Source of the DNA: Akkermansia muciniphila
GTDB lineage: Bacteria; Verrucomicrobiota; Verrucomicrobiia; Limisphaerales; JADLHS01
Length of the DNA: 33,396 bases
Assembly (NCBI GenBank): GCA_945882065.1
Contig: CAMCWI010000011.1
Span: forward strand, 1-33,396
Direction of reading: 5' to 3'
Shown here: positions 387 through 17,196 of the stretch, piece by piece
Layout: each line of letters begins with the position of its first letter
Numbering within the stretch: the stretch's first letter is position 1
Position numbers and translations under genes: made by a program
Notes under the pieces: generated by a model
What the model saw: only the letters and a program-made list of their open reading frames with translations
Databases searched by the model: none
What the model was told of the DNA's origin: nothing

Positions 387-1847
387 GTGCGAACTGTTTT
401 CAGATTGAAACTTTCTCCCGTTCTTCTAATCGCTTTCCTTCTTTGGCCGCTATCGGCTGTACAAGCCGCTTCACCCAAAAAGCCCAACATCATTTTCATC
501 CTCGCTGACGATCTTGGTTGGACGGATACCGCGACTTACGGCAGCAAGTATTACGAGACGCCGAACATTGACCAGCTTGCTTCGCAAGGGCTGAAGTTGA
601 AGCGGTATCACAACTGCCAGAATTGCCAACCCACGCGCGCAGCCTTGATGACCGGGCAATATGGAGCGCGCACGGGAGTTTATACCGTTGGAAACGTTGG
701 ACGATTTGAGTGGCAGAGCAGGCCGCTGCGTCCGGTGGACAATGTCGCCGAGCTTCCGCTCGACCGCTCAACGATCGCGCAACAGCTCAAGGCCGCGGGT
801 TACGCGACCGCGTTGTTCGGTAAGTGGCATCTCGGCGAAGATGCGGAACATCATCCGGCCGCGCGTGGTTTTGATGAAGCAATTGTCTCGAATGGAAAAC
901 ACTTCGACTTCAACACCAATCCCCAAACGCCGTATCCCGAAGGAACGTACCTCGCAGATTTTCTCACTGATAAAGCGGTGGACTTCATCAAGCGCAAAAA
1001 GGACGGCCCGTTCTTTCTCTACCTGCCGCATTTTGGCGTCCATGTGCCGCACCAAGCAAAGGCTGACTTGATCGCGAAGTTCAAATCCAAGTCCCCAGCC
1101 GGGGGACATCATGATCCGACTTACGCGGCGATGATTTACAGCGTGGATGAAAGCGTGGGGCGCGTGATGAAAACCCTGGATGAACTCGGCATCGCGGACA
1201 ACACCGTGGTCATTTTTTCCAGCGACAATGGCGGCGTGGGCGGTTACGAACGCGAAGGCATAAAGAATCGCGCCAGCATCACTGACAACGCGCCGTTGCG
1301 TAGCGGCAAAGGCAGCCTCTACGAAGGCGGCACGCGCGATCCGTTCATTATACGATGGCCGGGAGTCACGAAGCCCGGCACGATTTGTGACGTGCCGACT
1401 ATTCATGTAGATGTGTTCCCGACGTTTCTTGAAATTGCTGGCGCTGCAAAACCCAAGCAAGTGCTCGATGGTGAAAGCATGGTGAAACTTTTTCGCGACC
1501 CGAACGCTTCGCTCCAACGTGACGCCATTTACCAGCACTTCCCCGGTTATCTCGGTTCGAGCGAAGGCACTTGGCGCACGACGCCAGTCGGTCTCGTCGA
1601 GGTCGGCGATTGGAAGCTGATGGAGTTCTTCGAGGATGGACGGCTCGAACTCTACAATCTCAAGGACGACATCGGCGAATCCAAGAATCTCGCGCAACAG
1701 ATGCCGGAGAAGACCAAGGAGCTCCACGCAAAGATGATCGCATGGCGCAAAGCCATCCGCGCCCCGATGCCCACGAAGAACACCGACATCAAACTCGCCG
1801 GTGAAGGAAAAGCCGGGAAGCGCAAGGCCGTCAAGAAGTCCGAATAA
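387..1847 (+). CDS. Exported S1-family sulfatase (first of six)
   Basis: A 486-residue arylsulfatase-type hydrolase. These enzymes remove sulfate esters using a formylglycine made from an active-site cysteine. Visible features: a signal peptide (residues 1-27, ending VQA), the metal-binding motif NIIFILADDLG (Asp41/Asp42), the sulfatase signature C-Q-P-T-R at residues 80-84 followed by AALMTG, the sulfate-binding GKWHLG, the second metal site FSSDNGG, and a C-terminal YNLKDDIGESKNLA segment typical of the family. The start is a GTG with no obvious ribosome-binding site. The tail is strongly basic (GKRKAVKKSE). It begins a run of three sulfatases spaced 11 to 16 bases apart. The sulfated substrate cannot be read from sequence; the maturase that would convert Cys80 is not in the window. 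Confidence 0.95.
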   Translation: MRTVFRLKLSPVLLIAFLLWPLSAVQAASPKKPNIIFILADDLGWTDTATYGSKYYETPNIDQLASQGLKLKRYHNCQNCQPTRAALMTGQYGARTGVYTVGNVGRFEWQSRPLRPVDNVAELPLDRSTIAQQLKAAGYATALFGKWHLGEDAEHHPAARGFDEAIVSNGKHFDFNTNPQTPYPEGTYLADFLTDKAVDFIKRKKDGPFFLYLPHFGVHVPHQAKADLIAKFKSKSPAGGHHDPTYAAMIYSVDESVGRVMKTLDELGIADNTVVIFSSDNGGVGGYEREGIKNRASITDNAPLRSGKGSLYEGGTRDPFIIRWPGVTKPGTICDVPTIHVDVFPTFLEIAGAAKPKQVLDGESMVKLFRDPNASLQRDAIYQHFPGYLGSSEGTWRTTPVGLVEVGDWKLMEFFEDGRLELYNLKDDIGESKNLAQQMPEKTKELHAKMIAWRKAIRAPMPTKNTDIKLAGEGKAGKRKAVKKSE

Positions 1848-1863
1848 AAGTTCAAACTACCAA

Positions 1864-3195
1864 ATGAAAAGAACAATCCTGCTCCTGATCGCCGCCAGCT
1901 TTGCGTTTATTCCCTCTTCAAAAGCTGCCCAAGCAAAACAAGCAAAGCCCAACATCATCTTCATCCTTGCTGACGATCTGGGACTGGACGGCGTGAGTTG
2001 CTACGGAGCGGACAAGCGCAAGACGCCGAACATCGACAAACTTGCCGCATCAGGCACGCGTTTCGAGACCTGCTACGCCACGCCGGTGTGCGGGCCGACG
2101 CGTTGTGTATTGATGACTGGGCGTTACCCTTTCCGGACAGGCGGTCTTGTGAACCCCTCATGGCGGCCTGGCGGTCCTGGCGCGAAGTCAGCAGACGAAC
2201 ATCCGATGGCGAAGATGTTGAAGCAGGGCGGTTATGTAACAGGCGAGGCCGGCAAGTGGCGGCAGGTGGGCGAGACACCACGCGAATGGGGCTTCGACGA
2301 ATACATCACTTCCACGACGCCCAGTGGCTATTTCTGGAAAAACTCCTACATAAAAAACGGCGAGACAATCAAGAGCGACAAGGAAGAATACAATCCAGAC
2401 ATCATCCAAAACTTCAGCCTCGATTTCATCCGGCGTCACAAAGACAAGCCCTTCTTTCTCTACTACTCCATGCATCTCGTGCATGTCCCGATTCTCAAAA
2501 CGCCTGACTCGCCAAACGGCAAGACGAACAGCGAGGAGCTTTACGACGCCAACATCGCCTACATGGACAAGCAGGTGGGCGAGATTGTCGCCGAGCTGGA
2601 AAAGCTTGGTCTGCGGGAGAACACCCTCGTTATTTTCAGCGGTGACAACGGCACGGCGATGGACTTTTCTGCTCCCATCGGCGGTCGGATGATCAACGGC
2701 AAGAAAGCCTCGATGCTCGAAGGCGGTTCGCGCGTGCCGTTCGTCGCGAGTTGGCCCGGCACGACCCCGGCCGGAAAGGTCAGCAAAGACATCGTGAACT
2801 TCACCGACATGCACGCGACGTTTCTTGAACTCGCTAACGTGAAGCCGCCAACCGGATTCAAATTCGACAGCCGCAGTATCGCGCCCCAACTGCGCGGTGA
2901 AAAAGGCAATCCGCGCGAGTGGGCCTTTGTGCAATTGGGAAACACATGGTACGTGCGTGAGCAAGGTTGGAAGCTGAACGAAAGTGGTGAGCTTTTCGAC
3001 ATGAGCGATGCGCCTTTTGTGGAGAAGCCGGTTGCCGCTTCCGCCGACACCGACTTTAGTAAGGCGGCTCGAAAGCGGTTGGCTGCCGTTCTTGCCGAGC
3101 TCAATCCCGCTGGGGGCAAGATCGACATTGACGGTGACCCAAGAACCAAGAACCGAGACGGAAAAAAGAAGGTCAAACCAAACCAACGCCAGTGA
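1864..3195 (+). CDS. Exported S1-family sulfatase with altered sulfate-binding motif
   Basis: A 443-residue sulfatase. I placed the start at the ATG that opens a good signal peptide (MKRTILLLIAASF, cleavage near SKA). An in-frame GTG at 1801 lies inside the previous gene and adds an unlikely 21-residue extension. The metal motif IIFILADDLG and the signature C-G-P-T-R (Cys76 to Arg80, then CVLMTGRYPFRTG) are intact, and FSGDNGT supplies the second metal site. Where most relatives have GKWHLG, this protein reads GKWRQVG, so the usual histidine is replaced by arginine. The tail is basic (DGKKKVKPNQRQ). It sits 16 bases after the preceding sulfatase, in the same operon. The product is clear at family level; the substrate is unknown. 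Confidence 0.94.
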   Translation: MKRTILLLIAASFAFIPSSKAAQAKQAKPNIIFILADDLGLDGVSCYGADKRKTPNIDKLAASGTRFETCYATPVCGPTRCVLMTGRYPFRTGGLVNPSWRPGGPGAKSADEHPMAKMLKQGGYVTGEAGKWRQVGETPREWGFDEYITSTTPSGYFWKNSYIKNGETIKSDKEEYNPDIIQNFSLDFIRRHKDKPFFLYYSMHLVHVPILKTPDSPNGKTNSEELYDANIAYMDKQVGEIVAELEKLGLRENTLVIFSGDNGTAMDFSAPIGGRMINGKKASMLEGGSRVPFVASWPGTTPAGKVSKDIVNFTDMHATFLELANVKPPTGFKFDSRSIAPQLRGEKGNPREWAFVQLGNTWYVREQGWKLNESGELFDMSDAPFVEKPVAASADTDFSKAARKRLAAVLAELNPAGGKIDIDGDPRTKNRDGKKKVKPNQRQ

Positions 3196-3206
3196 CTTTT
3201 CCCCCA

Positions 3207-4724
3207 ATGAAAATTATTCGCGCGCTCAACTTGCTGGTCGGCGCTATCACCTTGTTTGCCGCGCCGCTGGTCAAGGCCGCGGACAAACCCAATTTCATCG
3301 TCATCAACATTGACGATTTGGGCTATGCCGACATCGGCCCGTTTGGTTCGACGCGCAATCGCACACCGAATCTCGACCGCATGGCGAAGGAAGGACGGAA
3401 GCTCACGAGCTTTTACGCCGCGCCGGTCTGCTCGCCGTCGCGCGCATCTTTGATGACGGGTTGTTATCCCAAGCGAGTGCTACCGATCGGTGGCGTGCTT
3501 TTTCCGAGTTCGGCTGTTGGACTCAGCCCGAGCGAACGCACCGTGGCTGAGTTGCTGAAGGCGGCGGGCTATACAACGGCGTGCATCGGTAAGTGGCATC
3601 TCGGGGATCAACCTGAGTTCATGCCGCGTCGTCGCGGATTTGATTACTACCTTGGCATTCCGTATTCCAATGACATGGGGCCGGCGGAGGAAGGTGCGAG
3701 GAGCAGCCTTGGCGCACCTATTCCAAAGCGTGCCACCAAGTCCGCAGGGGAAGCGAAAGAGACCGGATTACCGCTTGCCAGCGTTACGCCGATGCCACTC
3801 GTCGAAAACGAGACGGTCATCGCGCGCGTGAAGCAGGACGAGCAACAAGGCATCGTGGAACGCTACACCACGGCAGCGGTGAAGTTCATCAAGGCGAACA
3901 AAGACAAATCGTTTTTTCTCTACCTGCCGCACAACGCCGTGCATTTTCCCCTCTACCCCGGAAAGAAGTGGGCAGGCAATTCCCCCAAGGGTTTATACAG
4001 CGACTGGGTGGAGGAAGTGGATTGGAGTGTCGGTCAGGTGCTCGACATATTGCGCGAACTCAAGCTCGATGGGAAAACGCTCGTTATCTTCACCTCCGAT
4101 AACGGCGGCACACAGCGCGGACTCAACACCCCATTGCGGGGGCACAAGGGTGGCACGCTGGAAGGCGGCATGCGCGTACCGACCATCGCTTGGTGGCCGG
4201 GAAAAATCCCTGCTGGCACTTTGAGCGACGCCATCACTGGGATGATTGATGTTCTCCCGACCTTTGTGAGACTCGCCGGTGGCAAAGTGCCGACGGATCG
4301 CAAGATTGACGGCGGAGACATTTGGCCCGTGCTGGCTGGCGAGGCTGGTGCGAAATCACCCCACGATGTTTTCTATTATTTCAACGGATTACGGCTCCAA
4401 GCCGTTCGCAGCGGGCCATGGAAATTGCATTTGCCAGGCGCAGATCGGTCTGTCTCGCGCGCCGCAAAAAAAAGCGGTGATGACAAGGCCTCGTCAGCGG
4501 AAGGTCAGCTTTACAACCTCGACGCCGACATCGGCGAATCAAAGAACGTCGCCGAGGCAAATCCTGAAGTCGTGAAGCGACTCCGAGCATTCGCTGACGC
4601 GATGAAAGACGACCTCGGCCTCGACGGCATCGGCCCGGGCGTTCGCCCCATGGGGCGCGTGGAAAATCCGCAGCCGCTCATCGGCAAGGATGGAAAGATC
4701 CGCGCCGGGTTTGAACCGAAGTGA
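3207..4724 (+). CDS. Exported S1-family sulfatase (arylsulfatase A-like)
   Basis: A 505-residue sulfatase. The start is the ATG at 3207, which begins the signal peptide MKIIRALNLLVGAITLFAAP. An in-frame GTG at 3192 overlaps the preceding stop and adds only five residues. Visible motifs: FIVINIDDLGYADIG (metal ligands), C-S-P-S-R at residues 75-79 followed by ASLMTG, GKWHLG, IFTSDNGG and the C-terminal YNLDADIGESKNVAE. Residues around 175-200 form an insertion between the GKWHLG block and the LYLPHNAVH block. It is the third sulfatase of the block and is followed by a 78-base gap before the mutarotase-like gene, so a second promoter could lie there, though I see no convincing one. Confidence 0.95.
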   Translation: MKIIRALNLLVGAITLFAAPLVKAADKPNFIVINIDDLGYADIGPFGSTRNRTPNLDRMAKEGRKLTSFYAAPVCSPSRASLMTGCYPKRVLPIGGVLFPSSAVGLSPSERTVAELLKAAGYTTACIGKWHLGDQPEFMPRRRGFDYYLGIPYSNDMGPAEEGARSSLGAPIPKRATKSAGEAKETGLPLASVTPMPLVENETVIARVKQDEQQGIVERYTTAAVKFIKANKDKSFFLYLPHNAVHFPLYPGKKWAGNSPKGLYSDWVEEVDWSVGQVLDILRELKLDGKTLVIFTSDNGGTQRGLNTPLRGHKGGTLEGGMRVPTIAWWPGKIPAGTLSDAITGMIDVLPTFVRLAGGKVPTDRKIDGGDIWPVLAGEAGAKSPHDVFYYFNGLRLQAVRSGPWKLHLPGADRSVSRAAKKSGDDKASSAEGQLYNLDADIGESKNVAEANPEVVKRLRAFADAMKDDLGLDGIGPGVRPMGRVENPQPLIGKDGKIRAGFEPK

Positions 4725-4802
4725 TGGAACGAACACATTTGGTGAATGGCTTTGGAAAAAGATTTGCCGTATCACGGAACGAAAACCTAACATTAAAAAA
4801 TA

Positions 4803-6041
4803 ATGCGCCCGATCAAATGGTTACTGATGAGTCTGTCTATCTCTATGATTGCTGTGAACAACGCTAGCTCTGCTGCGGATAATAAGAAAATGCGAACACT
4901 TCACTCCCAGCCAAGTTTTGTCATCAGCACGAAACAGGTGGAACTTGGCGTCGCCGAACTTGGCGGCCACATGGCGCCGGTCACATTTTTCCGCGACAGC
5001 GACAAACCGGTGCAGCCGTATTACGTCAGCCCTTGGCAGGATGAAGCACCCTCCAAGATGCCCGTGCCGGTGCTCGTGCCATTGCGTGGCGATTTCTTTT
5101 GTCTTCCGTTCGGCGGGAATGGTCAGGAAGTCGCAGGCGAAAAGCATCCGCCACACGGCGAGGTTGCAGGATCGAAATGGAAATTCGTCGCCAACAAAAA
5201 ATCGGGCGACGTCAGCACGCTCACGATGGCGATGGACACGGAAGTTAGAAAAGGGCGCGTGACCAAGGAGCTTTCTCTCGTGGATGGCCAGAACGTCGTC
5301 TATTCCCGGAATATCATCGAAGGTTTTGCGGGGCGCGTGCCGCTGGGGCATCACGCAACATTGGCGATGCCTGAAAAGGAAGGTTCGGTCCGATATGCGA
5401 CGAGTGCATTCAAGTTTGGCATGACGTGCCCGGGTTTTTTCAGTGATCCGAAGAATCGTGAGTATCAATCCTTGTTGCCTAGCGCGAAGTGGACTGACCT
5501 CACGAAAGTGCCAACGGCGTGGAAAGAAACACCAGACGCCGATCTCACAGCCATGCCTGCGAGGTTTGGTCACGCTGACCTCGTTCAAATCGTGAATGAA
5601 CCTTGGGAAACCACCCGCGGTCCGGCGTGGAATGCAGCCACATTCACTGATGCGGGCTACCTTTGGTTTTCGCTCAAAGATCCGAGCATCTTGAACAGCA
5701 CGGTCCTTTGGATCGAGAATCATGGTCGCCATGGTCACCCGTGGAACGGCCGGAACAATTGCCTCGGCATCGAGGATGTGACGGCTCATTTTGCCGACGG
5801 CCTGTCTGCTTCAATGAACGACAACACGCTTACGAAAGAAGGCGTGACGACGACGATCGAGTTGAGCGCTAGCAAGCCAACCGCCGTGAATTACATCCAA
5901 GGCGTCGTGAAAGTTCCGACTAACTTCGGGAAGGTACAGACTCTTGAGTTCGCGCCGGGCGAGGTCACGTTTGTTTCCGCAACTGGCCAGCGCGTCAAAG
6001 CTTCGGTTCGTCACGAATTTTTGAAATCTGGCAAGCTCTGA
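4803..6041 (+). CDS. Exported protein, possibly galactose-mutarotase-like
   Basis: A 412-residue protein with a signal peptide (residues 1-24, MRPIKWLLMSLSISMIAV then NASSAA). The N-terminal part reads ELGVAELGGHMAPVTFF, which resembles the opening strand of aldose 1-epimerase / DUF4432-type beta-sandwich proteins. There is a His- and Trp-rich segment WIENHGRHGHPWNGRNN followed by LGIEDVTAHFADGL, like the late GIEP block of DUF4432 relatives. I infer a carbohydrate-binding mutarotase-like fold; no catalytic residue can be assigned. It lies between sulfatases and the sugar transporter genes, which fits a role in interconverting or binding released sugar. The family call is tentative. Confidence 0.6.
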   Translation: MRPIKWLLMSLSISMIAVNNASSAADNKKMRTLHSQPSFVISTKQVELGVAELGGHMAPVTFFRDSDKPVQPYYVSPWQDEAPSKMPVPVLVPLRGDFFCLPFGGNGQEVAGEKHPPHGEVAGSKWKFVANKKSGDVSTLTMAMDTEVRKGRVTKELSLVDGQNVVYSRNIIEGFAGRVPLGHHATLAMPEKEGSVRYATSAFKFGMTCPGFFSDPKNREYQSLLPSAKWTDLTKVPTAWKETPDADLTAMPARFGHADLVQIVNEPWETTRGPAWNAATFTDAGYLWFSLKDPSILNSTVLWIENHGRHGHPWNGRNNCLGIEDVTAHFADGLSASMNDNTLTKEGVTTTIELSASKPTAVNYIQGVVKVPTNFGKVQTLEFAPGEVTFVSATGQRVKASVRHEFLKSGKL

Positions 6042-6093
6042 TGCTTCAACATCGCCAAGCACTTATCTTATCCAACAACCACCAAACCAAATC

Positions 6094-7074
6094 ATGAAAA
6101 AACACCTCCAAACAATTCTCGCTTGCTTGCTTGCGCTATTGGCCGGCTGCGGCAAACCAGCCGATTCGTCCAACAATTCCAGTGGCGGCGAAACCTCTGC
6201 CGCGAAGGGAGCGATCGGCGTTTCATTGCTCACACTGGACAACCCGTTCTTCAAAGTCATCGGCGACAACATCACGGCTGAAGGCAAGAGGCGCGGTTAC
6301 GATGCAATCATTGTCAGTGCCGACAAAGACGTCGCGAAGCAGGGCAATCAGATCAAGGATTTCATCGTCAAGAAAGTCAGCGCCATCGTGTTGAGTCCGT
6401 GTGATTCGAAATCCATCATCCCCATCATCCAGGAAGCCAACGCGGCGGGCATTCCGGTGTTCACTGTGGACATCCCTTGCAACGAGCCCGGAGTGAAAAT
6501 CGTGACGCAAGTTGCCACGGATAACTTTGGCGGCGGCAAGGAGGCGGGTCAGGCGATGATTGAAGCGCTCGGCGAGGCAGGTGGTAAAATCGCGGTGCTG
6601 CATTTCAAGCAAGCTGAATCCTGCCTGCTCCGCGTGAAAGGTTTTCGAGAAGTCATTGACGCTCACAACGCCAGCGGCAAGGCGAAGATTGAAATCGTCA
6701 CCGAGCTCGAGAGCGGCGGTGCGAAAGACATTGGATTCAAAGCAGCTGAAGACGCGCTTCAGGCGCATCCTGATTTGCGCGGTGTTTTCGCCATCAACGA
6801 TCCCGCCGCGCTCGGCGCTCGCGGCGCGCTTGAAAAAGCAGGCAAGGCGCAGCAGGTGGTGATCATTGGATTCGACGGTCAACCTGAAGGCAAGCAGGCG
6901 ATCAAGGATGGCAAGATTTACGCCGACCCGATTCAATTCCCGGATAAGATGGGCGTGCAGATCGTGGATGCGATTGTTCGTCACTCGAAAGGCGAGACGC
7001 TTCCGCCGCAGATGCTCATCCCCACCAGTCTGTATCGCAAGGCGGATGCGCTCAAAGATCCCGAGCTCAAGTAA
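6094..7074 (+). CDS. Sugar ABC transporter substrate-binding lipoprotein (RbsB-like)
   Basis: A 326-residue periplasmic binding protein of the Peripla_BP_4 / ribose-binding class. It has a lipoprotein signal peptide with lipobox LAGC (Cys19 is the lipidated residue) and a Ser/Asn-rich linker. Family landmarks include GVSLLTLDNPFFKVIGDNI, ADKDVAKQGNQIKDFI, AIVLSPCDSKSIIPII, VFTVDIP, VATDNFGGGKEAGQAM, GVFAINDPAALGA and VIIGFDGQPEGKQAIKDG. It should deliver a monosaccharide or small oligosaccharide to the permease at 8000-9325. The intervening gene encodes an AroE-like oxidoreductase, an unusual partner. The leader is G-free and CAA/ACC-rich, without a Shine-Dalgarno sequence. Confidence 0.93.
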   Translation: MKKHLQTILACLLALLAGCGKPADSSNNSSGGETSAAKGAIGVSLLTLDNPFFKVIGDNITAEGKRRGYDAIIVSADKDVAKQGNQIKDFIVKKVSAIVLSPCDSKSIIPIIQEANAAGIPVFTVDIPCNEPGVKIVTQVATDNFGGGKEAGQAMIEALGEAGGKIAVLHFKQAESCLLRVKGFREVIDAHNASGKAKIEIVTELESGGAKDIGFKAAEDALQAHPDLRGVFAINDPAALGARGALEKAGKAQQVVIIGFDGQPEGKQAIKDGKIYADPIQFPDKMGVQIVDAIVRHSKGETLPPQMLIPTSLYRKADALKDPELK

Positions 7075-7092
7075 CAACAAATTCAAATAGCT

Positions 7093-7944
7093 ATGAGCGA
7101 AGGAAAATTCCGGCACGAACTCGTCGGTTCGATGTCCCAAGGCGCAGCGGGCAATCCCACAGTGGCGATGATTGAAGCGGCGTTTGCGCATCACAAGTTG
7201 CATTGGCGCTACGTCAACATGGAGGTCACTCCGGAGGATCTCGGCGCGGCTGTGCGCGGGGCGAGGGCCATGGGTTTCCGTGGCTTCAACTGCAGTCTGC
7301 CTCACAAGGTCACGGTGATCCAACACCTCGACGGCCTGGGCGAATCCGCAGCGTTGATGGGTGCGGTGAATTGCGTGGTGCGACGCGGTGAAAAGTTCAT
7401 CGGCGAAAACACCGATGGCAAAGGATTCTTGAAATCGCTCCAAGAGGTCATTGATACCAAGGGAAAGTCCGTCGTGCTGTTCGGCGCAGGCGGCGCGGCT
7501 CGGGCCATCGCGGTTGAACTTGGTCTCGCCGGAGTCAAACGCATCACCATCGTGAATCGCTCGGCAGCCCGCGGAACGGAATTGGTGACGTTGCTTCGCG
7601 AGAAATTGCGCGTCGAAAGCGAGTTGATTGTCTGGCAGGGAAACTACGCCGTGCCAGCCGGAACAGACATCGTCATCAACGGCACGTCCATCGGACTCTA
7701 CGATGCGAACGCGCGGCTCGCCCTGGATTTGAACACGCTGAAGCCTGGGATGGTGGTGGCTGACGTGGTGTTCAGTCCTGTGCGCACGGCTTTGCTCGAT
7801 GACGCTGCGAAACGCGGCTGTCGCGCTGTGGATGGTCTCGGCATGTTGGTCAATCAAGGCGTTGTAGGCGTGCAATACTGGACGGGGATTGACCCCGACA
7901 CTTCGGTAATGCGCAAAGCTCTCGAAGCAGCGCTGGGTGTATGA
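7093..7944 (+). CDS. Shikimate dehydrogenase-like NADP oxidoreductase (divergent AroE family)
   Basis: A 283-residue cytoplasmic protein of the AroE fold. It keeps the catalytic lysine (Lys72 in NCSLPHK), the substrate-side Asn93 (GAVNCV), the catalytic Asp108 (ENTDGKGF), the Rossmann glycine loop GAGGAAR (131-137), the NADP-type NRSAAR turn and the late LVNQGVVGVQYWTG block. The N-terminal substrate motif that in true AroE reads H-S-x-S-P is replaced by GAAGNPTVAMIEAAF, so the two serines that hold the shikimate carboxylate are missing. It sits 18 bases after the sugar-binding protein and before the permease, not with aromatic biosynthesis genes. I infer a catabolic dehydrogenase acting on an imported polyol or sugar acid. 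The name aroE should not be applied without assay. Confidence 0.85.
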   Translation: MSEGKFRHELVGSMSQGAAGNPTVAMIEAAFAHHKLHWRYVNMEVTPEDLGAAVRGARAMGFRGFNCSLPHKVTVIQHLDGLGESAALMGAVNCVVRRGEKFIGENTDGKGFLKSLQEVIDTKGKSVVLFGAGGAARAIAVELGLAGVKRITIVNRSAARGTELVTLLREKLRVESELIVWQGNYAVPAGTDIVINGTSIGLYDANARLALDLNTLKPGMVVADVVFSPVRTALLDDAAKRGCRAVDGLGMLVNQGVVGVQYWTGIDPDTSVMRKALEAALGV

Positions 7945-7999
7945 ACCAGACGCACGGCTGGCGACTTCGAGATCGTCAACGTGTGAAAAGTCCGATTGC

Positions 8000-9325
8000 A
8001 TGAAGCGCACGCTTTCCCAATTTTTTTCCGATTACGGAATGATGGTCGTGCTGCTGCTGTTGTGCGCCTTCTTCAGTGTAGTGACGCTCACCGAACAATC
8101 GCCAACCGGAGAGGCCGCCGCGAAGCAAGTTCTCGCCATTATTCAGCAACAGTCGGGCAAATCGGCTCGCGTCGTCGTCGCCGCCAGCGATCAACCTGAC
8201 GACGCAGCCTTCGCGGCAAAACTCGAGCGCGACCTTGCCGCATCCGGGGCGAGCGTGGTGACTGTCGTTAAAGGTGAACCCAAGGATGCGCGCGAAGCGT
8301 TGCAGGAAATCACCTTGTCCGGCGGCAAAGTGGACGCCATCGCTTGCACCAAAGTGACCGGTGCTTGGCTCGTGTTCGCGGACCTGAAAACGGATTTCCC
8401 GGCACTCGGCGAGCCGCGCGTCATTACCCCTCGCAGCTATCGCTGGCCAAATTTCCTGAAGACCGAAAATCTTCTGAACATCGCCAATCAGATCGCAGTG
8501 ATTGCGATTGTCGCCATCGGCATGACCATGGTCATCATCACGGGAGGCATTGATCTCTCAGTCGGTAGTCTGATCGCGCTCTCTGCCGTGCTGGCGGCGA
8601 AGTTCATCCGCGATTTTGCCGGAGGTGCAAATGCGACGCTGGTTGGGATGACGCTTGCTTGTCTCGCGGCGATTTTGATTTGCGGAATGATCGGTGCGTT
8701 CTCCGGTGGAATGATCACGCGGTTCGGCATTCCACCGTTCATCGTGACACTGGCCATGATGCTTGTTGGCAGCGGGCTGGCCTACATTCTCGCGAAGGGC
8801 CAATCCATCTACCAGATTCCTGATTCATTCGTTTGGCTCGGGCGCGGCGCGGATTTCCTTAGCCTGCCCAACGCCGTCGTGCTGATGCTCATCCTATATT
8901 TTCTGGCGCACGTGCTGATGTCGCGGACACAAATCGGGCGTTACATCTATGCTGTAGGTTGTAATCGTCAGGCGGCTCGTTACTCGGGTTTGTCCGTGCC
9001 GCGAGTGCTGATGTTCACCTACGTGGCCAGCGCACTTCTTGCCGGTTTGGGTGGAGTGTTGATGGCGTCTCAACTCAAGAGCGGCTCGGCAACTTACGGC
9101 AACATGTACGAACTCTACGTCATCGCCGCTGTGGTCGTGGGGGGGACGAGTTTGAGCGGTGGCGAAGGAAAGATGCTCGGTACTCTGACCGGCGCATTCA
9201 CCATCGCCGTGATTCAGAACGGCATGAACCTGACCAATGTCGAGAGCTATACGCAGAAGGTTGTGCTTGGACTGGTCATTCTCGGTGCAGTGTTGCTCGA
9301 CAATCTCCGACAGCGAAAGCGATAG
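8000..9325 (+). CDS. Sugar ABC transporter permease (RbsC-like) with extra periplasmic domain
   Basis: A 441-residue inner-membrane permease of the BPD_transp_2 (ribose/xylose) family. The start is the ATG opening MKRTLSQFFSDYG, directly before the first membrane helix (about residues 13-32). A GTG at 7937 overlapping the previous stop adds an implausible 21 residues. After the first helix comes a soluble stretch of about 110 residues (about 35-150: AAAKQVLAIIQQQSGKSARV through FPALGEPRVITPR) that ordinary RbsC proteins of about 320 residues lack. The family hallmark IVAIGMTMVIITGGIDLSVGS and later motifs (VGCNRQAARYSGL, VVVGGTSLSGGEGKMLGT) are intact. No RbsA-type ATPase gene lies in the window, so the transporter must borrow one. 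Confidence 0.92.
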   Translation: MKRTLSQFFSDYGMMVVLLLLCAFFSVVTLTEQSPTGEAAAKQVLAIIQQQSGKSARVVVAASDQPDDAAFAAKLERDLAASGASVVTVVKGEPKDAREALQEITLSGGKVDAIACTKVTGAWLVFADLKTDFPALGEPRVITPRSYRWPNFLKTENLLNIANQIAVIAIVAIGMTMVIITGGIDLSVGSLIALSAVLAAKFIRDFAGGANATLVGMTLACLAAILICGMIGAFSGGMITRFGIPPFIVTLAMMLVGSGLAYILAKGQSIYQIPDSFVWLGRGADFLSLPNAVVLMLILYFLAHVLMSRTQIGRYIYAVGCNRQAARYSGLSVPRVLMFTYVASALLAGLGGVLMASQLKSGSATYGNMYELYVIAAVVVGGTSLSGGEGKMLGTLTGAFTIAVIQNGMNLTNVESYTQKVVLGLVILGAVLLDNLRQRKR

Positions 9326-9384
9326 GTCTTTTCACGCGGTGTTCGGCGCAGGGGTCATTGGTGATAATTATTGAACTTTTTCTC

Positions 9385-12300
9385 ATGAAGCAAACAACCC
9401 ATCGAAGGGAACTGAACAATCCGATTACAGCATTCGCGCTCGCCGTAGCCATTCTGATTGCACCAGCGTTTGCCGCCGCGGAGGTCACGCTCCACTCGTT
9501 GATTGAGGAGATGATTGACTACGACGCGGTCGCGCGTTGGCCGCAACCGGAGTTCACCTGCAAACAGGCGAGCAGCTACGACCGCAAAAGAGTCGCCCCG
9601 GACAAACCCGACTGGTTCGCCAACCACGACCAAGGCCAGTACATCCGTGAGGAGAATAATGACGGACGCAAAGAGAACGTTATGCTCGACGCGGACGGCC
9701 CGGGATGCATCGTTCGCTTCTGGCTCACTGCGGGGAAATCCCGCAACGGCACGTTGCGCATTTATCTTGATGGAGCACCGACCCCAACGCTGGTGTTTCC
9801 GGCTTACGACCTCTTGTCTGGCACTCTGAATATCGGCGAGCCGTTAGCCTTGCCGCATCCTGGTTATGATCCGAAAGCGAATGGCGGCAACACGCTGATG
9901 CTGCCGATTCCGTATGCCAAGCATTGCAAAGTGACTTGGGAGGAAGCGAGCAGCGGCGGGCGTTATTACCAGATCAATTACCGCACTTACACACCGGGCA
10001 CTGCGGTGCAAACGTTCACGCTGGAGGCATTGGGAGCGGCCCGTCCGCTGATGGCCAAAGTGGGTAAAGCCTTGTTCGCGCCAACAGAAAACATGTCGGG
10101 CAAGTCGTTGTCTTTGAATGAAACGATCGCCGCTGGGAAGAACGCATCGCTTGATTTGACCGCTGGACCGGCGGCAGTGCGACTCTTGGAACTCCACGTC
10201 GGGGTGAGCGATTCGGCGGAATTGGAGCGCACCCTCCGTTCCACGATTGTGCAGATGCAGTTCGACGGCGAGGTCACTGTCTGGTGTCCGGCGAGCGACT
10301 TCTTCGGCAGTGGAGTGGGAATCAACGCCCTCTCAAGTTGGTATCGCACCGTGCACACGAACGGCACGATGCTCTGCCGCTGGGTGATGCCTTACAAAAA
10401 ATCTGGGCGCATCACGGTCGCAAACATTGGCGAACGTCCGATGAAGATGACGATGCGCGCCGTTACAAGTTCGTGGAATTGGGATGACCGCAGCATGCAC
10501 TTCCACAGCGCGTGGCATTACGAGGCCGACATGCAGACTCCGCCGCACCGAGATTGGAATTATGTTCGAATTGCGGGTCGCGGAGTTTACGTGGGCGATA
10601 CGCTGTCGCTCTTCAATCCCATCGCGACCTGGTATGGCGAGGGCGACGAAAAAATCTGGGTGGATGGCGAATCATTCCCGTCGCACATGGGCACGGGCAC
10701 GGAGGACTATTACAACTATTCGTATGCACCACGCGGCATCATTCAAACGCCGTTTGCGAATCAGGTACGCGTCGATGAGAAGATGACGCAGGGCCACAAT
10801 GTGCTTACCCGCACGCGCAACCTCGACGGAATTCCTTTCACCAAGTCTCTCAACTTCGACATGGAATTGATGCCGTGGAAGCCGATGAAAGTGACCTACG
10901 CGGCGACTACGCATTGGTATGCCTTTCCCGGCGCAACGTCGAACGTCAAGCCGCAGCCGAAAGAAGCGGCACTGCCTGTGCCCACACTGGCTCAGGCGAT
11001 TGTGGCGGCGGTGCGTCCTGACGTGATGATTGCCGACTTCCGGAAAACCCCTCTTCCCGAGGGTTGGAACGTCGAAGGCTATGCGTTCGGATCGCGAACT
11101 CGAGGCAGTGGTTTTCAGCAGGCAGCAGTGACCACAGAAAACCAGCGGCAATATCAATTCGGAAAAATTACATCGCCGGAGTTTACCCTTGAGCGAAATT
11201 TCATCGCGATGGAACTGGGCGGGACCTTTCATCCCGAGAAATGTTTTGTGGTGCTCAAGATTGATGGGAAGGAAGTGCGCCGGGCTTGGGGCGGGCAACT
11301 CAGCAAAGAGTGGACGAGTCTGAACGTGGATAAGTTCGCCGGCCAGAAAGCCACGTTGGAAGTGCGTGACGACCATTTCAACGGTTGGCTCTCCGTGGGG
11401 CAGGTGATCCAGACAGACGAACTAAAAGGGTCAGCGCAAAAGCGCGCTCCTCGGTGGAATGCCGCCATCTTCGAGACTCAGATCAAGGGTGACTATTTGC
11501 TGCTACCCATCGGCGATGAAAAATCTCCCATCGAAACCGTGAGCATTGAAATCGATGGCAAGCAAAAGCTCGCAATCGATGTGCCGCTGGCGATGAGCCC
11601 GACGACCAACATGCTGCCGGTTTATGACCTGCGCGGTTACCAAGGCGAAACGTTGCGCGTGAGTTATCACGAGACGCGCCGCGACATCGTCACGAAACAG
11701 ATTCAGGTCACGACCATCCCAGCTCACGCCGCCAGCGACGCGCTACCAGCGTTTCATGTTCACAATCGATTCGGCAAATTGAACGACCCGAATGGCCTCG
11801 TCTATCTCGGCGGGCAATATCACCTCTTTCATCAATACTTCATGGGCATGCGTGGAAAACTCTGGGCGCACTATGTCAGTCCAGACTTGATGCATTGGCA
11901 GGAGCAACCGATCGCTCTCTTTCCTGATGAGTTGGGTTCGATGCATTCCGGCTCGGCGGCGGTGGACTGGCTGAATACCGGCGGTTTTCAACAAGGAGAT
12001 CAACCCGCGATCATCGCAGCCTTCACCGGCTCGCGCGGATTGGGCGGGAAAGATAAAATCCAACTGCAAGCAATCGCCTACAGCACCGACGGCGGCCGGA
12101 ACTTCGCAAAGTACGGAGGCAATCCGGTGATCGGCGAGGCACATCTCAAGAAGCTGAATTCCAAAGACAGCCGCGACCCGAAGATATTCTGGTTTTCGCC
12201 AACGCGCGGGTTGGATGCCAAGGCGAAGGATGGGTTCTGGGTGATGGTTCTGTTCGAGGGCAAAGGATTGTCCTTCTTCAACTCTCATGATCTCAAAACG

Positions 12301-13083
12301 TGGGAGAAGCGCGGCAGTCTTCCGGGATTTTTTGAATGCCCGGATCTGTTTCCACTGGCGGTGGACGGCAATCCGCAGAACGTGCGTTGGGTTATTCACG
12401 GCGGCAATGGGGAGTATCACATCGGCGCGTTCGATGGTCAGTCGTTCAAGTCCGAATCGGAGAAGAAGATCAAATTCAACCACGGCGGACGTTATTATGC
12501 GGCGCAGACTTTCAACAACACGCTGGGCGAAATGCCTCGCCGCATTCAAGTGGGCTGGCAGGGCAACCAACTCTCCGTGCCCAATGAACTCACGCTGCGC
12601 ACCACCCCCATCGGACTCCGCATGTGTGTGCTGCCGGTGAAGGAGATCGCGAATCTTTACCAACGCAGCGAATCGTTTGATGGTCAGGTGTTGCGCGAGG
12701 GTGATGCGAACCTCCTGAAACAATTCAAGAGCGGTCGCTACGACATCGAGTTTGACGGACGCGTTGGCGGCGCGAAGCAGATTGAATTCACCGTGCGCGG
12801 CAAAGTCATCCGCTACGCCGTCAGTGAGCGCGAACTTAGTTGCGAGAGTTTCAAAGTCACACTCCCGGCTAACGAGGGTCGGCTCAAGCTGCGCGTGGTC
12901 GTGGACAATTGTTCGATTGATATCTACGTCGGCGATGGTGGACAGTATTTCATTCCCATGTTTTTTGATCCGCTTAAATCCAAGGAACTCGAGCTGCGTG
13001 TCCTGGGAGGAACGATCAAGCTTGAAGGCCTGAGTGTCCATGAACTCAAGTCCATCTGGAGCAATGAACAGAAAACCAATTGA
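9385..13083 (+). CDS. GH172 (DUF2961)-GH32 fusion glycosidase, exported
   Basis: A 1232-residue bifunctional enzyme. The start is the ATG at 9385 (MKQTTHRRELNN) before a hydrophobic signal ending AFAAAE; the TTG at 9358 is unlikely. Residues about 35-520 form a DUF2961/GH172 domain. WYGEGDEKIWVDGE and GTGTEDYY place Glu419 and Glu440 exactly 21 residues apart, as in the characterised alpha-fructofuranosidase of this family (Glu270/Glu291, from memory). Residues about 547-678 and 690-785 resemble the beta-domains found at the N-terminus of levanases. Residues about 790-1110 are a GH32 propeller with nucleophile Asp801 (LNDPNG), Asp931 (RDP) and acid/base Glu984 (FECPD). A beta-sandwich with DNCSIDIY closes the protein. 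GH32 cuts beta-fructofuranosides; GH172 cuts alpha-fructo- or alpha-arabinofuranosides. Confidence 0.9.
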   Translation: MKQTTHRRELNNPITAFALAVAILIAPAFAAAEVTLHSLIEEMIDYDAVARWPQPEFTCKQASSYDRKRVAPDKPDWFANHDQGQYIREENNDGRKENVMLDADGPGCIVRFWLTAGKSRNGTLRIYLDGAPTPTLVFPAYDLLSGTLNIGEPLALPHPGYDPKANGGNTLMLPIPYAKHCKVTWEEASSGGRYYQINYRTYTPGTAVQTFTLEALGAARPLMAKVGKALFAPTENMSGKSLSLNETIAAGKNASLDLTAGPAAVRLLELHVGVSDSAELERTLRSTIVQMQFDGEVTVWCPASDFFGSGVGINALSSWYRTVHTNGTMLCRWVMPYKKSGRITVANIGERPMKMTMRAVTSSWNWDDRSMHFHSAWHYEADMQTPPHRDWNYVRIAGRGVYVGDTLSLFNPIATWYGEGDEKIWVDGESFPSHMGTGTEDYYNYSYAPRGIIQTPFANQVRVDEKMTQGHNVLTRTRNLDGIPFTKSLNFDMELMPWKPMKVTYAATTHWYAFPGATSNVKPQPKEAALPVPTLAQAIVAAVRPDVMIADFRKTPLPEGWNVEGYAFGSRTRGSGFQQAAVTTENQRQYQFGKITSPEFTLERNFIAMELGGTFHPEKCFVVLKIDGKEVRRAWGGQLSKEWTSLNVDKFAGQKATLEVRDDHFNGWLSVGQVIQTDELKGSAQKRAPRWNAAIFETQIKGDYLLLPIGDEKSPIETVSIEIDGKQKLAIDVPLAMSPTTNMLPVYDLRGYQGETLRVSYHETRRDIVTKQIQVTTIPAHAASDALPAFHVHNRFGKLNDPNGLVYLGGQYHLFHQYFMGMRGKLWAHYVSPDLMHWQEQPIALFPDELGSMHSGSAAVDWLNTGGFQQGDQPAIIAAFTGSRGLGGKDKIQLQAIAYSTDGGRNFAKYGGNPVIGEAHLKKLNSKDSRDPKIFWFSPTRGLDAKAKDGFWVMVLFEGKGLSFFNSHDLKTWEKRGSLPGFFECPDLFPLAVDGNPQNVRWVIHGGNGEYHIGAFDGQSFKSESEKKIKFNHGGRYYAAQTFNNTLGEMPRRIQVGWQGNQLSVPNELTLRTTPIGLRMCVLPVKEIANLYQRSESFDGQVLREGDANLLKQFKSGRYDIEFDGRVGGAKQIEFTVRGKVIRYAVSERELSCESFKVTLPANEGRLKLRVVVDNCSIDIYVGDGGQYFIPMFFDPLKSKELELRVLGGTIKLEGLSVHELKSIWSNEQKTN

Positions 13084-13090
13084 AACATTT

Positions 13091-14962
13091 ATGAAAAATG
13101 CTCAATCCGTTCGACCTGTTCTAATCATCGCAGCCGCGCTGATGCTTGGTGGACGATCCGGACTCGCAGCCACTCCTACGAAGTCTCCTTTGGATTCAGA
13201 AGTCGGGCGGCAATTTATTCCTACAGACGTGAATTGGTCGAATGCCGTTTACCAGACCACGTTTGATGATCCTGCTGAACTGGAAAACTGGAAACTCGAA
13301 GGCGGCAAACGCATGAGCGTAGAGAATGGGAAACTCGTCCTCGAGACCACGGGCAAAGATGATCCTCTCGTGTGTTGGCTAAAGGCGGAGGCTCCGGCGG
13401 ACTTCCTGCTCGAGTTCACAGTCCGGCCGCAAAATCGAAAGCAAGGCTTGAACATCGTGTTCTTCAACGCGCGCGGAATCCACGGCGAGAGCATATTCGA
13501 TCCGGTAATGAAGCCGCGCGATGGAACCTTCAAGCAGTATACACAGGGCGATTTGAACAATTACCACATCTCCTATTGGGCCGCGGCTCGCGGCACAGCC
13601 CACGTGCGCAAGAACCCCGGGTTTGGGCAAGTCGCCAACGGCAAGGATCTAATCGCCGACGCGCCTGCAGACGCGTTCCAGGTCGTCCGGCTCTACAAAC
13701 GCGGCGGAAAGATACGACTGATGGTTGACGACATCGTCGCGGTTGCGTACGACGACGACGACGGCAAGAAGCGTGGTCCCGTGTGGACAAACTCCGGCTG
13801 GATCGGACTGCGGCAAATGGCGCACACTATCCGGTGCGAATATGACCACCTGAAGATTTTCCCACTCAAGCCGGTTGCAACCGCCGCGAACGGCGTTGCG
13901 TCGCTGGCGGCGGCGGCAAATTCACAACTACCGCAGCCGCCAAAAGTCGTTCGCTTCAAGGAGAACCCCATCATCCGGCCCGAGATGTTTTCCGGTCCGG
14001 CTAGCAACAACATCTGCTTTCCGTCATTGATTCGTGTGCCGCCCTGGCTGCCGAATCCGCTCGGTAAATACTACCTGTACTTTGCCGATCACCACGGTGA
14101 CTACATCCGACTAGCTTACGCGGAGCGGGTCGAAGGGCCTTGGAAGATTTACGAGCCCGGCACTCTAAAGATGGAGCAGGTTGTTGACACGGCCCGGGCT
14201 GCATCGCCCGGGAAAGCGGCTGCGGTCAAAGGCGGCCACATCGCGTCGCCCGATGTGCATGTGGACCATGATCGGCGGGAGATCCGCATGTATTTCCACT
14301 ATAAGATGACTCCGGCAAAGGCTTGGGGTCATCGATCGGGCGTCGCCGTTTCGCAAGACGGAATCCATTTCCAGCCTGTCGGCTCGAAGCCACTCGGCGA
14401 ACCCTACTTTCGAGTCTTTCGCCGGGATGGCTACTATTACGCCGTTGACCGCGTTGGCGCCCTCACCCGTTCGCGTGATGGGCTAGCTGATTTCGAGGCT
14501 GGCAACCCGAACTTTGCCGCTGCCGTCGGTCACAAAGTGCGGGGCACTGGACTTGGCACCATCTCGAAAAGAAACGCAATCAAGCGGGAAAAAGGCGAGA
14601 CGGAGAATCTGCCCGGAGAAATCCGGCACACGGGCTTGAAATTGGACGGCGACGTCCTGTCGGTATTCTTCAGTCGCGGGGGTGATTTACCGGAGCACAT
14701 CATGTGTGCCCAATCGGTCCTGACTGGCGATTGGAAAACGTGGCGACTCTCCCCGCCGGTGACAGTGCTGAAGCCGACGATGGACTACGAAGGCGGTAAC
14801 ATGCCACTCGAGCCAGCAAAGAACAGCGAACTACACCAGTTGCCGCGACCGCTCGCTCGAGATCTGCGTGATCCCTTTATCTTCCGCGAAGACGGGCAGA
14901 CATATCTCCTGTATTCGGTTGCTGGCGAACGTGGCATTGCCGGGGCCACTCTGCGAGACTGA
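13091..14962 (+). CDS. Exported DUF1961 domain plus five-bladed beta-propeller (GH43-like) protein
   Basis: A 623-residue protein. The ATG at 13091 lies 7 bases after the GH172-GH32 stop; in-frame GTG/ATG codons upstream (13034, 13064) overlap that gene. After a signal peptide, residues about 37-261 are a DUF1961 domain (jelly-roll lectin-like; FFNARGIHGES, LNNYHISYW, RLYKRGGKIRLMVDD, GLRQMAHT). An Ala-rich linker (about 262-295) leads to a propeller with blade motifs of the GH43/GH32 type (YYLYFADHHGDYIRLAYA, HIASPDVHVD, LRDPFIFREDGQTYLLY). Acidic residues exist at propeller-like places, but I cannot prove glycosidase activity. The DUF1961 half is nearly duplicated at 30966-31748. Out-of-frame sequence right after the stop is a relic of a GH32 C-terminus. 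Confidence 0.85.
   Translation: MKNAQSVRPVLIIAAALMLGGRSGLAATPTKSPLDSEVGRQFIPTDVNWSNAVYQTTFDDPAELENWKLEGGKRMSVENGKLVLETTGKDDPLVCWLKAEAPADFLLEFTVRPQNRKQGLNIVFFNARGIHGESIFDPVMKPRDGTFKQYTQGDLNNYHISYWAAARGTAHVRKNPGFGQVANGKDLIADAPADAFQVVRLYKRGGKIRLMVDDIVAVAYDDDDGKKRGPVWTNSGWIGLRQMAHTIRCEYDHLKIFPLKPVATAANGVASLAAAANSQLPQPPKVVRFKENPIIRPEMFSGPASNNICFPSLIRVPPWLPNPLGKYYLYFADHHGDYIRLAYAERVEGPWKIYEPGTLKMEQVVDTARAASPGKAAAVKGGHIASPDVHVDHDRREIRMYFHYKMTPAKAWGHRSGVAVSQDGIHFQPVGSKPLGEPYFRVFRRDGYYYAVDRVGALTRSRDGLADFEAGNPNFAAAVGHKVRGTGLGTISKRNAIKREKGETENLPGEIRHTGLKLDGDVLSVFFSRGGDLPEHIMCAQSVLTGDWKTWRLSPPVTVLKPTMDYEGGNMPLEPAKNSELHQLPRPLARDLRDPFIFREDGQTYLLYSVAGERGIAGATLRD
13199..13873 (+). repeat. DUF1961 coding duplication, copy A
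   Basis: These 225 codons encode the DUF1961 domain of the propeller fusion and match 30969-31640 on the opposite strand over their whole length. There is one codon difference in length (DDDD versus DDD near the end) and about four in five residues are identical by eye. Nucleotide identity is also visibly high, for instance around the RGGKIRLMVDD codons. Confidence 0.8.
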
Positions 14963-15156
14963 TTCCTCTGCGCCTCGTTATGGACAACTGTTCAATTGAT
15001 ACCTTTGCCGGCGATGGCGGACAGTATTTCATGCCTGTGCTGTTTGATCCGTTGAATTCAACAAATATCGATTCATACACTCTGAGCGGATCAATCAAAC
15101 TCGGACTCTTGAGTGTCCTTGAACTCAATCCCATCTGGGCGAAGGCGAAGCCATGA
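14953..15156 (+). pseudogene. Relic of a GH32 C-terminal beta-sandwich
   Basis: In a different frame from the DUF1961-propeller gene, an open stretch translates to ARLIPLRLVMDNCSIDTF, then AGDGGQYFMPVLFDPL and SIKLGLLSVLELNPIW. This matches the last 60 or so residues of the GH172-GH32 enzyme (GRLKLRVVVDNCSIDIY, GDGGQYFIPMFFDPL, TIKLEGLSVHELKSIW) almost block for block. There is no start or catalytic domain, so it is a tail fragment. Its TGA overlaps the ATG of the next gene (ATGA), which suggests that gene was once translationally coupled to a full GH32 gene. Confidence 0.85.
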
Positions 15157-16466
15157 AGTGGCGGATTTGTTTGACCGTTTTGACAGCCACCTCCGCATGG
15201 CGATTAATGGCGTCTACCCCAGCGGAATTGGAGGCGGTGAACGCAGAAACCATGCATGCGTTTCATGGTACAAATGTCCATGGGGTGGACGTAAGCTCGC
15301 TCACGGGAAAAGTGATGTGTGGTTATCAAGGCTGGTTCAATACTGAGGGCGACGGCGCGGGGCGCAGCTTTCATCATTGGACGAGAGACGGTGGATCACT
15401 CCGACCTGGTAATGCAAAGATTGACCTCTGGCCGGACGTCTCCGAGCTCGGTCAGGAAGAGCGTTTCCCTACGGAGTTTCGCCAAGCCGACGGGCGCATC
15501 GCGGAAGTTTTCAGTTCGTTCAAACAGACGACGGTGCTGCGGCATTGTCAATGGATGCGTGACTACGCTATTGATGGCGTGTTCGTGCAGCGTTTCATCG
15601 CACCGCTCCGTGATGCCCGAAATTTGCAGCACAACAACGTGGTGCTCGATCACTGCCGCGAAGGGGCGAACCGCTTTGGCCGCGCCTATGCCGTGATGTA
15701 TGACCTGAGCGGACTCGGCGAAAACCGGGTTTCGGAGGTTGCTGATGACTGGCGGGCGTTGCGAATTCAGATGCACATCACAGAAGATCCGGCATATCTA
15801 CGGCATCGCGAAAAGCCGGTGGTAGCCGTCTGGGGTGTGGGGTTCAACAAGGATCGCAAATACACAATCGCGGAATGTCGTCGGCTGGTGGAGTTTTTGA
15901 AAAAGGATGGATGCACGGTCATGCTTGGCGTGCCGAACGGTTGGCGCGAATTGAATCGTGATAGCGTGACCGATCCTGAGTTGCATGAGGTGTTGAAGCT
16001 CGCGGATATAGTCAGCCCGTGGACGGTGGGCCGGTATCGCACCGTGGCAGAAGCAAAACTGCATGGGGACAAGGACGTGAAACCTGATCTTGCGTGGTGT
16101 CGCGCGCAGGGTCTCGACTACCTGCCCGTGCTCTTTCCCGGGTTTAGTTGGTTCAACATGAAAGGCAAGGCGTTCAACAGCATACCGCGACTCAAGGGCG
16201 AATTCCTTTGGTCACAGTTTGTGGCGGCGAAGCAAGCGGGGGCGGAGATGATCTATGTGGCCATGTTTGACGAGGTGGACGAGGGCACGGCGATTTTCAA
16301 ATGCAAGAACGACGTGCCAGTGAGCGACAAAGACAAATTTGTGACTTATGAAGGACTTCCCTCTGACTTCTACCTCAAGCTGACGGGACAAGGCGGGCGA
16401 TTATTGCGCGGCGAAATCCAACCGTCCGGAAAAATTCCGTGTTTGCTTGCGCCGCTCGCTGAATGA
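15153..16466 (+). CDS. Exported GH71/GH99-like glycoside hydrolase family protein
   Basis: A 437-residue protein with a signal peptide (MKWRICLTVLTATSAWRLMAS). The body matches the GH99_GH71_like TIM-barrel group: KVMCGYQGWFNTEGDGAG, SFHHWTRDGG, IDLWPDVSELG, VLRHCQWMRDYAIDGVFVQR, AVMYDLSGL, KPVVAVWGVGF, DIVSPWTVGRY, YLPVLFPGFSWFN and EMIYVAMFDEVDEGTAIFK. Relatives with known activity include alpha-1,3-glucanases and endo-alpha-mannosidases, but proteins of this subgroup are mostly uncharacterised. It is sometimes annotated as xylosidase/arabinosidase. It is the last gene of the forward operon. Its start codon overlaps the stop of the GH32 relic. Confidence 0.82.
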   Translation: MKWRICLTVLTATSAWRLMASTPAELEAVNAETMHAFHGTNVHGVDVSSLTGKVMCGYQGWFNTEGDGAGRSFHHWTRDGGSLRPGNAKIDLWPDVSELGQEERFPTEFRQADGRIAEVFSSFKQTTVLRHCQWMRDYAIDGVFVQRFIAPLRDARNLQHNNVVLDHCREGANRFGRAYAVMYDLSGLGENRVSEVADDWRALRIQMHITEDPAYLRHREKPVVAVWGVGFNKDRKYTIAECRRLVEFLKKDGCTVMLGVPNGWRELNRDSVTDPELHEVLKLADIVSPWTVGRYRTVAEAKLHGDKDVKPDLAWCRAQGLDYLPVLFPGFSWFNMKGKAFNSIPRLKGEFLWSQFVAAKQAGAEMIYVAMFDEVDEGTAIFKCKNDVPVSDKDKFVTYEGLPSDFYLKLTGQGGRLLRGEIQPSGKIPCLLAPLAE

Positions 16467-16554: not shown

Positions 16555-17196
16555 TCAATGACGAGGTTCAGATTTATTCTGGAATTTGGCAATGGCTTCT
16601 AGGCGGCTGCGTACGTGCATCTTGTTGCAAATGCCTTTGACGTAAGTGCGCACGGTTTCGACACCGATGTTCAACTGATCACCAATCTCCTTGTAGATAA
16701 ACCCTGAAGAGAGCAATTCAAGGACTTGGCGCTCGCGCGGCGACAGATTTTCAGCGTCCGCAGACGTGGGCGCAACTGAATGGAAGTACTGGACGACTTT
16801 TTGCGCTATCGGGCTGGACATGGGCGCGCCTCCGCGATACGCGTCACGGACGGCTTCGAGCAACTGTTCGGGAGGACTGGATTTAATGAGGTAACCGTTG
16901 GCGCCCGCTTTGAGGGCTTTGAAGATGCGGTCGCTGTCTTCATAGACCGTGACCATGATAATTTGGATTTTCGGGAGCAGGCTTTTGAGTTCGCTGACGC
17001 ATTGGATGCCAGACATGCCTGGCAACTTGATGTCCATGAGTACGACGTCCGGCAGGTTTTCTGGAATATGTTTCAAAGCCTCCTCGCCTGTGGTGAAGTT
17101 TCCGATGCATTCGATGTCAGACGCGCTGCCAAGGATTTTGATGAGCTGGTTTCGCAGTCCTGAGTCATCCTCGACTATCGCAACAGTTTTCTTCAT
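16555..17196 (-). CDS. NarL/LuxR-type response regulator
   Basis: A 213-residue two-component regulator. The receiver domain (about residues 3-120) has the acidic pair Glu9/Asp10/Asp11, the phospho-acceptor Asp55 in VVLMDIKLPG, the conserved Thr in IIMVTVYED and Lys in GYLIKSS. A LuxR-type helix-turn-helix fills the C-terminus (about 147-210: LSPRERQVLELLSSG, IYKEIGDQLNIGVETVRTYV). It starts at the base next to the stop of the sensor kinase gene and is surely co-translated with it. It is convergent with the carbohydrate operon (88 bases apart), so it plausibly controls that operon or the secreted-protein genes across the divergent region. Confidence 0.95.
   Translation of the reverse strand: MKKTVAIVEDDSGLRNQLIKILGSASDIECIGNFTTGEEALKHIPENLPDVVLMDIKLPGMSGIQCVSELKSLLPKIQIIMVTVYEDSDRIFKALKAGANGYLIKSSPPEQLLEAVRDAYRGGAPMSSPIAQKVVQYFHSVAPTSADAENLSPRERQVLELLSSGFIYKEIGDQLNIGVETVRTYVKGICNKMHVRSRLEAIAKFQNKSEPRH

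Follow-up and report, generated by a model that had tools for sequence, protein, structure and literature searches.

The fusion gene and its surroundings

The window, by which we mean the whole stretch of DNA analysed (33,396 nucleotides), is one complete contig (C11) of a 3.86-Mb MAG in 348 contigs. A run of co-directional genes in the window includes a gene that joins two glycoside hydrolase families in one reading frame:

387..16466, forward strand: co-directional gene run that includes the fusion; largest gap 190 bp
9385..13083, forward strand: GH172::CBM-like::GH32 fusion gene, 1232 aa, from the open reading frame and Pfam
9385..9480, forward strand: putative Sec signal peptide MKQTTHRRELNNPITAFALAVAILIAPAFAAA, assigned by eye from the sequence
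9481..10095, forward strand: additional jelly roll at the N terminus that duplicates the first one of DUF2961 (the "1.5 DUF2961" build), from Pfam and hhalign
10234..10923, forward strand: DUF2961/GH172 catalytic core, residues 284-513 (Pfam E 5e-62; model pLDDT 92)
11005..11022, forward strand: junction of the GH172 and GH32 modules (GH172 end LPVPTLAQA..), from alignment with unfused GH172s and the other two fusions
11020..11454, forward strand: CBM-like jelly-roll domain, residues 546-690, of a kind frequent N-terminally in related GH32 proteins
11467..11685, forward strand: DUF4980-like domain, residues 695-767 (Pfam, below cut-off)
11755..13041, forward strand: GH32 catalytic propeller and C-terminal sandwich, residues 791-1219, from Pfam and structure match

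The run encodes three S1-type sulfatases, a protein without a Pfam match, RbsB-like, AroE-like and RbsC-like proteins, the fusion, a DUF1961 protein and a GH99-like protein, and we infer that it is an operon. All three sulfatases, which lie upstream of the fusion, have intact C-x-P-x-R motifs; since sulfatases are widespread in the phylum, they are by themselves weak evidence on the substrate. Directly upstream of the fusion are importer genes for an RbsB-like binding protein and an RbsC-like permease, flanking a gene for a shikimate-dehydrogenase-like (AroE-like) protein (6094-9325), and a motif scan of the window found no ABC ATPase. The Pfam-less protein (4803-6041, 412 aa) has a signal-peptide-like N terminus and is perhaps mutarotase-like. 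Directly past the run, the reverse strand encodes a LuxR-type response regulator and a histidine kinase (16555-18927), a possible regulator.

The open reading frame of the fusion is unbroken from the ATG at 9385 to the stop at 13083 on the forward strand, and the Pfam domains DUF2961, Glyco_hydro_32N and Glyco_hydro_32C all score above their curated cut-offs, which bears out the proposal of an earlier note that GH172 and GH32 are carried by one chain. Given the putative signal peptide, the protein would be exported. The two-half layout described in that note accounts for both enzymes but passes over the CBM-like and DUF4980-like domains between them.

Folds and catalytic residues of the two halves

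Residues 33-545 and 546-1232 were folded separately, because the full-length alignment misplaced single-domain GH32 rows. The positions on which the comparison with characterised enzymes turns were all placed by alignment, those of the altered pocket with 23 relatives:

10639..10641, forward strand: Glu419 in GEGDE, equivalent to alphaFFase1 Glu270 (acid/base)
10702..10704, forward strand: Glu440 in GTGTEDY, equivalent to alphaFFase1 Glu291 (nucleophile)
11776..11778, forward strand: Lys798, Trp in most relatives (altered pocket)
11785..11787, forward strand: Asp801, GH32 nucleophile position (NDPNG)
11944..11946, forward strand: His854, Phe/Tyr/Trp in nearly all relatives, FSGS motif (altered pocket)
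12175..12177, forward strand: Asp931, GH32 RDP aspartate
12334..12336, forward strand: Glu984, GH32 acid/base (ECPD)

The GH172 half matches DUF2961 (PF11175) with 209.9 bits against a gathering cut-off of 27. A second, partial PF11175 match at 9742-9993 falls in the extra jelly roll, which aligns with the first DUF2961 jelly roll at an hhalign probability of 92% (E 5e-7). The model of this half has a double jelly-roll fold with a mean pLDDT of 92.3 and matches all four GH172 entries of the PDB (8ic8, 8ah3, 4kq7, 7v1v) with Z scores of 33.8-34.5; viral double-jelly-roll capsid proteins gave a weaker structural match, a relation of the DUF2961 fold that has already been published (PMC8812541). 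The acid pair named in the earlier note was numbered correctly: Glu419 and Glu440, 21 residues apart, occupy columns that are invariant among 44 relatives from the phylum and align with Glu270 and Glu291, identified in alphaFFase1 as acid/base and nucleophile (PMC8605356). From the fold match and the residue alignment, both glutamates are predicted to face one pocket.

The best-understood point of comparison, alphaFFase1 (BBDE_2040 of Bifidobacterium dentium, 7V1V), is a difructose anhydride I (DFA I) synthase/hydrolase that interconverts DFA I and inulobiose and is encoded in an operon with GH32 and an ABC transporter (PMC8605356). It shares with the window protein the DUF2961 fold, both glutamates and a gene neighbourhood of GH32 and ABC transporter genes. 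Unlike the fusion, it is single-domain and intracellular, stands apart from GH32 and has no extra jelly roll, and its identity to the window GH172 is about 25% over the aligned core. As to its residues at subsites -1 and +1, Trp267 is kept as W416, Trp298 is replaced by Y447 and Tyr187 aligns with T356; Glu85' and Lys147' lie beyond the sequence alignment, from which second-protomer residues cannot be judged. Since Trp298 has become Tyr447 and identity to the solved members is only about 21-25%, the specificity of alphaFFase1 cannot be carried over.

The majority of GH172s characterised so far are D-arabinofuranosidases, and DgGH172b of Dysgonomonas gadei, a protein of 1.5 DUF2961 domains that is a dimer in solution, acts on D-arabinan, with weak activity on some substrates (PMC10115798). 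By its published description DgGH172b shares the duplicated-jelly-roll build of the window GH172, with no GH32 fused to it, and is the nearest characterised enzyme of this build, from which a dimer would be predicted for the window protein too. A difructose anhydride substrate is therefore one option among several.

In the C-terminal half, Glyco_hydro_32N (PF00251, residues 791-1064) scores 164.9 bits against a cut-off of 22.1 (E 4e-48) and Glyco_hydro_32C (PF08244, residues 1091-1219) 31.2 bits against 21.9 (E 3e-7). The model of this half (pLDDT 84.8) gave Z scores of 42.7 to the Aspergillus ficuum endo-inulinase 3sc7 and 41.2 to the exo-inulinase InuAMN8 (8i12), so that structure prediction, as proposed in the earlier note, places both halves with solved members of their families. 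A PDB sequence search with the CBM-like domain of a canonical relative returned no match. In another locus the same kind of domain splits the GH32 match within one 1016-aa frame (L096:8583-11630).

The inulinases share with the window half the five-bladed propeller, the C-terminal sandwich and the triad, and the residues Asp801, Asp931 and Glu984 named in the earlier note are present exactly as numbered. The further statement that both catalytic sets are intact holds for the catalytic residues but not for the GH32 pocket, which is non-canonical. Conserved GH32 aromatics line the sugar pocket. These aromatics are absent from the window half, with Lys798 and His854 in their place, and the NPxGWxWGN loop is shortened (HQYF-MGMRGKLWAH), which sets the window half apart from the two inulinases; the aromatics and the full loop are common among relatives but are not formal family criteria. 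Ordinary beta-fructofuranosidase activity thus cannot be assumed for the GH32 half. The branch leading to this half is long (1.38) in the tree. Elsewhere, a GH32 clustered with a close relative of the window GH172 (L075:6303-7616) has Val for the acid/base Glu and no NPxGWxWGN loop.

Recurrent fusion and linkage of GH172 to GH32

The earlier note knew of no described enzyme with this pairing. It had in fact been listed: the domain combinations given in a 2022 PNAS survey (Krupovic et al., PMC8812541) include DUF2961 with GH32 (PF00251) and GH43, among others. That listing concerns the same two families in one chain and gives architecture alone, with no function tested, and the titles and abstracts of the open-access GH172 literature that we found mention no assay of a GH172::GH32 fusion. 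The architecture of the window protein is thus a known one, though the protein itself is uncharacterised. What is new are two further fusions, the evidence from them that GH172 and GH32 were joined on at least two occasions at one common junction, and a clade of GH172 linked to GH32.

The 320 genomes of the window's order yielded no other such fusion among hits with an E value of 1e-60 or better, and a search of the contigs of its own genome with the whole fusion returned distant GH32 relatives only. The same architecture does occur elsewhere: a class-wide search found two GH172::GH32 fusions (L094 and L095, in G562 and G608) in another order, with uninterrupted reading frames 1087 and 1083 codons long, and these were the sole ones found among 213 genomes of that order. 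They have the domain order of the window fusion and its GH172 end point (LPvPTLA.A), but they are without the CBM-like domain, have a canonical GH32 pocket and are of separate origin. The GH172 tree places them as sisters of the unfused GH172s from G239 and G245 (100/99), apart from the window. A single clade of fusions is rejected by the AU test for the GH172 halves (p 0.001) and for the GH32 halves (p 0.00016), which argues for at least two independent welds at the same junction, with the caveat that the window GH32 half sits on a long branch. The independent appearance of such a join in a second bacterial lineage suggests that both halves act on the same sugar.

The window GH172 belongs to a clade of 14 members (support 100/99). 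Of the 14, 10 are fused to GH32 or lie within 5 kb of one, as against 0 of 46 other GH172s examined in similar stretches; the Fisher p of 1e-8 is too strong a figure, because the clade was noticed before counting and its members are related. No GH32 is nearby at the remaining four clade loci, one of which (L076) is on a 4.6-kb contig. Among the genes that neighbour clade members are those for sugar porters, for PfkB kinases and for a prokaryotic ketohexokinase. In the window's own genome, another locus (C45) carries a GH172 gene that adjoins two GH32 genes and a PfkB kinase gene; in this GH172 (L034:3964-5583) Gly replaces the acid/base Glu. Joint action of the two halves on a fructose-containing glycan is plausible in view of the clade's linkage to GH32, the recurrent fusion and the fructose-type kinases and transporters nearby. 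In B. dentium and Streptomyces davawensis, GH172 and GH32 are separate neighbours for which sequential action on DFA I has been proposed (PMC8605356).

Proposed function and competing readings

Our preferred reading, to which we give about even chances, is that the fusion is a single exported polypeptide working as a two-step exo-furanosidase, with both halves acting on one fructose-containing glycan. The GH172 half would remove terminal alpha-D-furanosyl residues, most likely alpha-D-fructofuranosyl, by a retaining mechanism with two glutamates, and the GH32 half would take beta-D-fructofuranosyl residues off the same glycan or off the product of the first step. The CBM-like domain between the halves probably tethers the chain to its substrate. 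The weld would stand in for the neighbouring GH172 and GH32 genes of related bacteria. The RbsB/RbsC-like importer genes just ahead of the fusion fit this reading, and the B. dentium operon is a precedent for it.

The altered GH32 pocket and the D-arabinan activity of a GH172 of the same build keep two other readings alive. The GH172 half may be an exo-alpha-D-arabinofuranosidase, with the GH32-fold half cutting a different furanosyl bond of one shared glycan that is not a fructan, such as D-arabinan or a sulfated furanan. This would fit the predominance of D-arabinofuranosidases among characterised GH172s, the 1.5-domain build of DgGH172b (PMC10115798), the atypical GH32 pocket and a window dominated by sulfatases instead of fructan enzymes; fructose-type kinases and canonical GH32s nevertheless recur beside the clade, and we consider this reading rather unlikely. 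It also seems unlikely to us that catalysis is due to the GH172 half alone, the GH32 half being by now weakly active or carbohydrate-binding. The long branch, Lys798, His854 and the shortened loop are what such decay would look like, and the loss of the acid/base Glu in L075 indicates that degeneration occurs in such a setting, but the window GH32 has a complete triad, a frame open throughout the domain and a predicted fold near that of active inulinases.

More speculatively, and in our view improbably, the fusion could be part of a new system for degrading a furanoside polymer that carries charge, for instance as sulfate. The sulfatases would then desulfate the polymer, alpha- and beta-furanosyl units would be taken off in alternation by GH172 and the Lys/His-lined GH32 pocket, and the RbsB/RbsC-like proteins would import the sugar. 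If so, GH32 would have acquired a specificity beyond those described for it.

An assembly chimera or sequencing error that welded two neighbouring genes is very improbable: the window fusion was seen in one MAG only, itself in 348 contigs, and GH172 and GH32 genes are adjacent in relatives, which makes a lost stop codon conceivable, but each domain stops at its natural edge and the domains abut there, the reading frame is continuous and GC even across the junction, third-position GC is similar on its two sides (0.70 in the GH172 part, 0.66 in the GH32 part), and fusions with the same junction exist in two other genomes. The junction alignment shows no remnant of a signal peptide ahead of the GH32 module, which likewise speaks against an artefact and for which reason simple stop-codon loss was also set aside as the origin of the fusion.

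Few enzymes of the young family GH172 have been characterised, and a clade tied to GH32 and fructose-type kinases, with at least two fusions to GH32, points to fructose-containing furanosides as a concrete substrate hypothesis for many DUF2961 proteins that lack annotation. As natural two-domain enzymes, the fusions also provide a system for asking whether alpha- and beta-furanosidases cooperate.

Enzyme fusions of other kinds are plentiful in the window's order and class. One locus encodes GH172::GH123_N (L072:5614-9879) and another a frame of similar length (L073:4640-8926); GH10::GH172, DUF6786::GH172, GH95::GH32, sulfatase-sulfatase-GH32 and GH172::GH172 fusions also occur (further fusion loci L069:4099-7458, L053:257-3145, L041:1488-5756, L040:4888-9999 and L102:7326-11072). 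In G122, a 1621-aa frame (L070:6558-11420) combines GH172 with an Ig-like domain and histidine kinase domains (HisKA_3, HATPase_c); its product may be a sensor kinase whose outer portion resembles an enzyme.
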